The translations under genes were made by a program, and so were the position numbers. Below are positions 4,062 through 31,986 of a stretch of DNA of 64,000 bases, one piece after another. Source of the stretch: Candidatus Altimarinota bacterium (GTDB lineage: Bacteria; Patescibacteriota; Gracilibacteria; BD1-5; UBA2023). Numbering within the stretch: position 1 is the stretch's first letter; each line of letters begins with the position of its first letter. The notes under the pieces were generated by a model. The model was not told where the DNA came from. It did no database searches and was given only the letters and a program-made list of their open reading frames with translations. The DNA is taken from assembly GCA_028685185.1 (NCBI GenBank), contig JAQUEK010000003.1, forward strand, positions 1-64,000, read 5' to 3'.

Positions 4062-4135
4062 TGGAGGTACCACCCGGAGTCGGACCGGGCTACGAGGCTT
4101 TGCAGGCCTCTGCATAACCGATCTGCCATGGCACC
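4062..4135 (-). tRNA. tRNA-Cys (GCA)
   Basis: Full cloverleaf by eye: acceptor GGTGCCA pairs with TGGTACC, anticodon stem GAGGC/GCCTC around loop CTGCAAA (anticodon GCA), T stem CCCGG/CCGGG. U73 is the cysteine discriminator base, and CCA is encoded. Confidence 0.93.
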
Positions 4136-13813: not shown

Positions 13814-15712
13814 ATGTGAAAAATTATTTGAATTGATCTTTGAACCACAAATTCTTGTGTTGCTTTCATGGAATGAGGTCAGCCTAAAGTTATACCAAAT
13901 GCTGAATGATGAAGAACTACTCCATCGATAGTCGCAAATAAGAATTGAGAGGTTTTGGTAGGTACAACGGCAAAAAGACAAGCTGTCGTAAATCCTGCAC
14001 AGACCATTTACAGCGCGAAAAGATTTATCTGAAGAAAATTCGATGAGGTTCAATCAGAGCTTAAGAATGTTCCTTTCAACGTAGTCAAATGACCAGGATG
14101 AGAATGTCTTATAGAATTCAATTGAAAGAACATAAGACCTGAAGAGATTTCAGCAAGGGTTCTTGAAAAACTGAAAGAAGATGCAGAAAAATTTCTTTGA
14201 GAGAAAATCACAGAAGCTGTAATCACCGTTCCTGCTTATTTCAACGATGACCAAAGACAATCTACTATAAATGCCTGAAAGATTGCAGGACTTGAAGTTA
14301 AGAGAATAATAAATGAACCTACTGCAGCAGCGCTTTCATATTGACTTGATAAGAAAAAAGAAGAAAAAGTCGCTGTATATGATTACGGATGAGGTACATT
14401 TGACATCTCTATCCTTGAAATCTGAGCAGAATGAACTTTCGAGGTTTTGGCTACGAATTGAGATACTCATCTTTGATGAGATGATTTGGACCAAAGGATA
14501 TTCGAATGGATCGTTGATGAATTCAAGAAAGACCAATGAGTTGATCTAAGAAAGGATCCCATGGCAGTTCAGAGGGTTAAGGATGAAGCTGAAAAAGCGA
14601 AAAAAGAGCTTTCAACGGTTTCTGAAACAGAGATAAACCTTCCATATATAACAGTTGATTCATCTGGGCCTAAGAACCTATTCATGAAGCTTACACGTGC
14701 AAAATTCGAGGAATTGATATATGATCTGGTTGAAAGATCTTTAGAACCTTGCAGGAAAGTATTGAAAGATGCTGGACTTCAAGCAAGCCAAATCGATGAG
14801 GTCATACTTGTTTGAGGTACGACAAGAATACCGCTTGTGGTCAAGAAAGTTGAAGAATTCTTCTGAAAGAAGACTAATTCATCTGTAAATCCTGACGAGG
14901 CAGTTGCTTTATGAGCGGCAATCCAGGCATGAATAATCACTTGAGATGTAAAAGATGTCCTATTGCTTGATGTTACTCCATTATCGCTTGGTATCGAAAC
15001 CCTATGATGAGTCATGACAAGGATGATTGAAAGGAATACTACGATCCCTTCCTCAAAATCACAGGTTTATTCCACTGCTATGGATAATCAGGATAGCGTA
15101 GAGATACATGTCCTTCAATGAGAAAGGGAAATGGCAAATGACAATAAATCACTATGAAGATTCATATTATCAGGAATCATCCCGGCTCCTAGATGAGTCC
15201 CTCAGGTTGAGGTCACTTTCGATATCGATGCGTCATGAGTTCTGCATGTTACAGCAAAAGACAAATGAACAGGAAAAGAACAGAAGATCATGATACAAGG
15301 TTCTACAGGTATGGATAATGCTGAAGTGGATAGGCTTATAAAAGAAGCTGAGGCTAATAGGGAAGCAGATAAGAAAAGAAAAGAATCCATAGAATCAAGA
15401 AATATGGCTGAATCAGCTATATATCAGGCTGAAAAAACCATGAAGGATAATGAATGAAAATTCGATGCTAAGCTTTGAGATGAAGCGAAGGAGAAATCTG
15501 AAGCAATCAAGAAAGTATTGGAGAATCAGGAAGCTACAAAGGAAGAATTGGATCCAGCGGTACAAGCCCTTCAGGATATCATGATGAAAATCTGACAGGA
15601 GATCTATTCTAAAACCCAAGCGGAATGAACCGATGATTGAGTTAAGGTAAAGGATAATAATCCAGATGAACCGAAGAAAGAAGATGACAGTGTTGAATGA
15701 GAAGTTGAATAA
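13814..15712 (+). CDS. dnaK: chaperone DnaK (Hsp70)
   Basis: A 632-aa Hsp70. The N-terminus MGKIIGIDLGTTNSC is the phosphate-1 motif; YDYGGGTFD (phosphate 2) and the VILVGGTTRIP adenosine motif follow. The substrate-binding domain and a helical lid end in an acidic tail of the usual EEVD-like bacterial type. It is an ATP-driven folding chaperone working with DnaJ and GrpE; grpE lies 20 kb away and dnaJ is not in the window. No CIRCE is visible upstream of the exonuclease-dnaK pair. Confidence 0.97.
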
Positions 15713-31359: not shown

Positions 31360-31434
31360 TGGTACAGCCGACAGGGATCGAACCTGTATCACAGCCTTCG
31401 CAGGGCCATATTCTATCCGTTGAACTACGGCTGC
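31360..31434 (-). tRNA. tRNA-Arg (GCG)
   Basis: The cloverleaf is complete: acceptor GCAGCCG/CGGCTGT, D stem GTTC/GAAT, anticodon stem TGGCC/GGCTG with loop CTGCGAA (anticodon GCG), T stem ACAGG/CCTGT with loop TTCGATC, discriminator A and encoded CCA. Most bacteria read CGN codons with an ACG tRNA edited to ICG; a G34 version is unusual. Confidence 0.9.
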
Positions 31435-31907: not shown

Positions 31908-31986
31908 TGGAGCGGGGGATGAGGTTTGAACTCACACACCCAAGGGTTGAAGCCTTAGTACACTCACTCTTTTATGTTACCCCCGC
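31908..31986 (-). tRNA. tRNA-Gly (UCA), reads UGA as glycine
   Basis: Acceptor GCGGGGG/CCCCCGC, T stem GTGAG/CTCAT with loop TTCAAAC, encoded CCA. The anticodon loop CTTCAAC gives UCA, closed by TAAGG/CCTTG (a sixth pair, C-G, is possible). G1-C72, C2-G71 and discriminator U73 are known GlyRS identity features, and C35 is kept. The D arm is atypical: weak stem and no GG in the loop. Total 79 bases. This is the tRNA that makes the recoding in this window work. Confidence 0.88.

Follow-up and report, generated by a model that had tools for sequence, protein, structure and literature searches.

The 64,000-nucleotide stretch of Candidatus Altimarinota bacterium DNA analysed here (the window) carries the gene for a tRNA-Gly(UCA) that, judged from sequence, almost certainly reads UGA as glycine: it appears to be single-copy, charged with glycine by an alpha2-type glycyl-tRNA synthetase (GlyRS), and at work in a cell without release factor 2 (RF2). 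This recoding and the meaning of the codon are known biology; UGA as glycine has already been published for BD1-5 (PMC6851277) and corresponds to NCBI code 25. What may be new is the architecture of the tRNA, in which a six-pair anticodon stem, a GAG D loop and C38 are fixed. In the literature searched, from which the primary SR1 paper (PMC3619370) was absent, we found no description of a fixed Gracilibacteria architecture, nor of a MiaA motif lost in both recoding lineages (see below). We consider the explanation as a whole, which joins a UGA-reading glycine tRNA and a fixed body plan to a proposed part in decoding fidelity, very probable; the fidelity role taken by itself is graded separately below.

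The tRNA-Gly(UCA) gene

The gene and its parts are positioned in the window as follows.

31908-31986, minus strand: tRNA-Gly(UCA) gene, 79 nt including CCA (ARAGORN; Rfam RF00005, 45.8 bits; DNA search of relatives)
31980-31986, minus strand: acceptor stem, 5' strand GCGGGGG, in which G1, C2 and G3, which belong to the glycine identity set, do not vary among 23 distinct relatives
31974-31977, minus strand: D stem, 5' strand ACAU; paired to the GUGU strand in every sequence, covariation A-U/G-C and A-U/U-A
31964-31973, minus strand: D loop AAAAGAGUGA; GAG replaces GG and is invariant in 23 distinct relatives
31960-31963, minus strand: D stem, 3' strand GUGU; covariation
31953-31958, minus strand: anticodon stem, 5' strand CUAAGG, 6 nt, the canonical length plus one; six pairs in 23/23
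31946-31952, minus strand: anticodon loop CUUCAAC (C32, U33, anticodon, A37, C38); invariant in 23 distinct relatives
31948-31950, minus strand: anticodon UCA (ARAGORN)
31940-31945, minus strand: anticodon stem, 3' strand CCUUGG; covariation
31936-31939, minus strand: variable loop GUGU, 4 nt (direct reading, alignment)
31919-31935, minus strand: T arm GUGAG-UUCAAAC-CUCAU; in relatives, both members of three pairs are changed
31908-31918, minus strand: acceptor stem, 3' strand CCCCCGC, with discriminator U73 (31911) and encoded CCA (31908-31910), both invariant in the alignment

Read 5' to 3' on the minus strand, the tRNA is GCGGGGG-UA-ACAU-AAAAGAGUGA-GUGU-A-CUAAGG-CUUCAAC-CCUUGG-GUGU-GUGAG-UUCAAAC-CUCAU-CCCCCGC-U-CCA, with a linker of 2 nt between acceptor and D stems, a D loop of 10 nt and a normal T loop. 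An earlier note on this DNA had placed a UGA-decoding tRNA with an atypical D arm at exactly these coordinates, and both position and fold hold up: the Rfam tRNA model accepts the molecule at 45.8 bits against a gathering cut-off of 29, the lowest score of any of the genome's Rfam tRNA matches above the cut-off. The note's description is likewise borne out in its details, namely an anticodon loop reading UCA (C32-U33-U34-C35-A36-A37-C38), a weak D stem (ACAU/GUGU) beside a D loop without GG, an anticodon stem of six pairs (CUAAGG/CCUUGG, paired in all 23 distinct relatives), and G1-C72, C2-G71, U73 and C35. G3-C70 is present too, which completes the glycine identity elements (G1-C72, C2-G71, G3-C70 and U73, taken as criteria from PMC8629427); they are evident on direct reading and invariant among the 23 relatives. 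A fast Rfam scan of the whole window did not return this tRNA, probably on account of its filters.

Two further tRNA genes noted in the window are also on the minus strand. The tRNA-Cys(GCA) at 4062-4135, found by ARAGORN, has a three-pair D stem and U73 and is not among the genome's Rfam tRNA matches. The tRNA-Arg(GCG) at 31360-31434, beside the tRNA-Gly(UCA), replaces the usual ACG form, as reported for this entire bacterial radiation (PMC8629427).

Codon meaning, release factors and glycine supply

The meaning of UGA was examined in one gene of the window in particular.

13814-15712, plus strand: dnaK, with 39 in-frame UGA codons (Pfam HSP70, 4.1e-251)

At the 37 UGA columns that could be scored, 83% of the residues in 25 RF2-bearing relatives are glycine, and in every one of the 27 conserved columns (one residue in at least 80%) that residue is glycine. 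Across 25 long genes of the window, UGA accounts for 611 of 777 glycine codons (about 79%), against 60 UGG and 84 UGU/UGC codons in the same sample, and all 25 genes stop at UAA or UAG. RF2 (TIGR00020) scored above its cut-off in 0/33 genomes of the order and 0/32 of a second recoding family, f13, compared with 115/127 others of the class; the genome that holds the window has a single release-factor-family match, which scores under the prfB cut-off, and prfB has been reported missing from all BD1-5 genomes (PMC6851277). With RF2 lost, genes would end at UAA or UAG through RF1. For a BD1-5 relative, proteomics recovered 97 peptides unique to UGA as glycine and 3 unique to UGA as tryptophan (PMC4032931).

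The genome's GlyRS, of the alpha2 type, would be the enzyme that charges tRNA-Gly(UCA) with glycine. Its own gene contains 15 in-frame UGA codons, so that synthesis of the enzyme depends on the tRNA that it would charge. The only other tRNA-Gly found in the genome is tRNA-Gly(UCC) (L037). As the sole GGN-reading tRNA-Gly found there, and with C32 and A38, it probably serves the four GGN codons by superwobbling, which is also the case in Mycoplasma mycoides (PMC10853795). Some relatives additionally have a tRNA-Gly(GCC).

Conservation and distribution of the architecture

We aligned 23 distinct tRNA(UCA) sequences from the same order as the window genome. For the four pairs of the D stem and the six of the anticodon stem, pairing holds in 100% of cells; registers slid along the sequence drop to 27-58%. 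Two D-stem pairs are altered on both sides (A-U to G-C; A-U to U-A), which shows the weak D stem to be a real helix. Two anticodon-stem pairs also change on both sides, among them the sixth and outermost, which goes from C-G to U-A in a single event (L022). Over the whole structure there are 8 co-varying pairs, where shuffled alignments gave a mean of 4.0 and one of 500 shuffles reached as high a count. The D loop always contains GAG and never GG, and the whole anticodon loop is invariant. By these sequence comparisons, the GAG D loop, the weak D stem kept by covariation, the six-pair anticodon stem, the 4-nt variable loop and C38 form a body plan that is fixed throughout the lineage.

Pairing potential by itself is unspecific, since at least six pairable positions beside the anticodon loop occur in 12 of this genome's 36 other tRNAs and are thus not rare; the six-pair stem is therefore argued from covariation and from the single inserted 5'-side nucleotide that distinguishes tRNA(UCA), with A26 remaining unpaired. 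Minimum-energy folding was discarded as evidence, the best fold being no cloverleaf for tRNA(UCA), nor for the ordinary tRNA-Gly(UCC). In the window genome these two tRNAs have identical T arms. We considered concerted evolution of these arms and rejected it, with 120/210 positions shared against 112.6 expected (p = 0.04, 21 genomes).

An exact search for the anticodon arm in named genomes returned 64 stretches, 61 of which are this tRNA, nearly all from Candidatus Gracilibacteria with one Candidatus Altimarinus and a few unnamed bins; the remaining 3, and one viral match, are not tRNAs. On the strength of the 61 matches, the organism of the window is a gracilibacterium. Patterns for anticodon arms of the Gracilibacteria type, of the f13 type or of the type of one f13 genome (G207) gave no matches in viral contigs, or matches that are not tRNAs. 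By DNA search, the tRNA is present in 50/59 relatives, and absences fall mostly in incomplete assemblies.

Possible reasons for the unusual arms

A U34 tRNA that reads UGA but not UGG has been noted as a potential ambiguity in these bacteria (PMC8629427). UGA is so much more frequent here than UGG or UGU/UGC (611 against 60 and 84 codons) that a U34 tRNA in abundance would do harm if unrestrained; in decoding about 79% of glycines, tRNA-Gly(UCA) would mainly risk misreading UGG (tryptophan) and UGU/UGC (cysteine). Position 38 could bear on this risk. MiaA is present in 20/20 genomes tested, and all known IPTase substrates carry A36-A37-A38 (PMC7200024). The genome's eight other A36 tRNAs retain that motif, and tRNA-Gly(UCA) alone departs from it, with C38, a nucleotide common to both recoding lineages; in f13 the motif is broken by G37-C38. 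As C38 breaks the motif that MiaA needs, A37 would stay unmodified and misreading of UGG and UGY would be held down. The six-pair stem and the probably unmodified A37 could together restrain wobble and near-cognate reading; lengthening the stem would then do the reverse of shortening it to four pairs, which favours readthrough of UGA (PMC13092985).

A fidelity role, in which stem and A37 guard against the reading of UGG and UGY, is plausible and compatible with the data, and we hold it tentatively, as less likely than not. The stronger version, in which a dedicated body plan of six pairs, GAG and a MiaA-evading C38 lets a U34 tRNA tell UGA from UGG, we think unlikely. The leading rival is that the odd arms have no decoding role and are a neutral or historical body plan fixed in the ancestor of Gracilibacteria and kept by ordinary folding and synthetase constraints; we give this about an even chance. 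Across the order, the UGA share of DnaK glycines ranges from 0 to 76% with no change in anticodon arm or D-loop motif; the architecture is thus not adjusted to load, and a scaling of architecture with UGA load was rejected on this ground. Such constancy speaks against a fidelity role in so far as a neutral body plan predicts it as well. The D stem, moreover, can be followed stepwise from GCUU/GAGC (L079, L080) through ACUU/GAGU (L077, L078) to ACAU/GUGU with pairing kept, and the sister lineage f13, which is built differently, makes do with five stem pairs and GG in the D loop, so that neither six pairs nor GAG is needed to read UGA as glycine. Against neutrality, there is almost no variation in GAG, in the anticodon loop or in the six pairs of the stem, while the T arm varies freely, a pattern that suggests a specific constraint; C38, too, recurs in both recoding lineages. 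The share of UGA is itself not a simple function of G+C content (dnaK, L302-L322): one genome has 0% at 31% G+C (G037) and another 76% at 25% (G031).

Family f13, which by elimination is probably Absconditabacteria, has a tRNA-Gly(UCA) whose anticodon stem has five pairs and whose anticodon loop reads CUUCAGC or AUUCAGC; its D loop contains GG, and in most cases CCA is not encoded. As the probable SR1 counterpart, it differs from the Gracilibacteria form, with its six pairs, GAG, A37 and CCA, at each of these points. Two separate origins of UGA as glycine, one for each type of tRNA, would account for the two builds, which are unlike in the length of the stem, in the D loop, at position 37 and in whether CCA is encoded, and the idea was raised by a DnaK tree that does not place the lineages as sisters. 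We nevertheless judge it improbable and set it aside: in a tree of concatenated RpoB and RpoC, with other phylum members as the root, the two lineages are sisters (100% SH-aLRT), a placement also published (PMC8629427, PMC8080830), and RF2 is lost in both. Given the RpoB+RpoC placement, the simplest course of events is a single recoding, after which the tRNA diverged. Contig C33 of one f13 genome (G207) has a phage-like stretch (L396:16647-19894), read with glycine at UGA, that encodes polynucleotide kinase (phrog_505) and possibly an endolysin. An array of seven tRNAs in this stretch contains a tRNA-Gly(UCA) of its own, whose anticodon arm, CUAAG-CUUCAAC-CUUGG, equals that of the window tRNA minus one G-C pair.

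The earlier note had suggested that the odd arms may keep the tRNA off normal codons, the possibility taken up above as a fidelity role, or away from release-factor competition. Its overall interpretation, glycine at UGA in a setting known from Gracilibacteria, stands on the glycine at 27/27 conserved DnaK columns, the complete identity set and the 61 named matches, but the part on release factors falls. RF2, the factor for UGA, is absent from the entire order (0/33) and from f13, and RF1 does not read UGA. With RF2 gone (prfB is missing in BD1-5; PMC6851277), such competition cannot explain the shape today. Nothing beyond the anticodon favours the idea; it could have mattered in an RF2-bearing ancestor, and we regard it as very improbable.

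Comparison with known tRNAs

PMC4695839 summarises the work of Campbell et al. (2013) on tRNA-Gly(UCA) in SR1/Absconditabacteria, where UCA, glycine identity elements and RF2 loss likewise occur together; in that summary the D and anticodon arms are noted as divergent from ordinary tRNA-Gly. Accounts of recoding in Gracilibacteria/BD1-5 (code 25; PMC4032931, PMC6851277) concern the same lineage and codon meaning and the same lack of prfB; they leave the shape of the tRNA undescribed, and in the genome studied here UGA is the main glycine codon. Six anticodon-stem pairs together with a small variable loop, as here, also occur in tRNA-Pyl and in mammalian mt-tRNA-Ser(UCN); tRNA-Pyl, like tRNA-Gly(UCA), is further without G18-G19 and decodes what was once a stop codon (PMC7609411). 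Unlike either, the present tRNA has a 2-nt acceptor/D linker, a ten-nt D loop, a normal T loop and glycine identity. The likeness is one of build only, not homology. An assignment as tRNA-Pyl (CUA, G73, a 3-nt variable arm and a short D loop) was rejected, the tRNA here having UCA, U73, 4 nt and ten nt, respectively; the six-pair stem and the missing GG are the only features in common.

Work on tRNA-Trp(CCA) with a four-pair anticodon stem (PMC13092985) ties stem length to bacterial UGA reading and covers the class of Gracilibacteria; by comparison, the stem of tRNA(UCA) is longer and its anticodon cognate. The window genome's own tRNA-Trp has a five-pair anticodon stem, matching the expectation of that study. 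The D stem of this tRNA-Trp(CCA) (L051) is GUUC/GAAU and hence contains U11-A24. This is the pair created by the Hirsh UGA-suppressor mutation in E. coli tRNA-Trp, and it could add to rare misreading of UGA as tryptophan.

ARAGORN labels the gene SeC because of its TCA anticodon alone, and a selenocysteine tRNA, which would share UCA, can practically be dismissed given a four-nt variable loop and a seven-pair acceptor stem (where tRNA-Sec has a long variable arm and an extended acceptor/T domain), the glycine identity set, and the hundreds of UGA codons in ordinary genes.

Implications

The body plan described here may help tRNA-Gly(UCA) to avoid misreading neighbouring codons, and the sixth pair, GAG and C38 are candidate parts for discriminating UGA from UGG. 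A differently built sister lineage, together with relatives in which UGA makes up 0-76% of DnaK glycines, provides natural controls. The tRNA also offers a strongly constrained natural model for the design of UGA-reading tRNAs. If the stronger version of the fidelity role is true, a single tRNA would supply most of the glycine of these bacteria without misreading tryptophan and cysteine codons, a mirror image of four-pair superwobbling.
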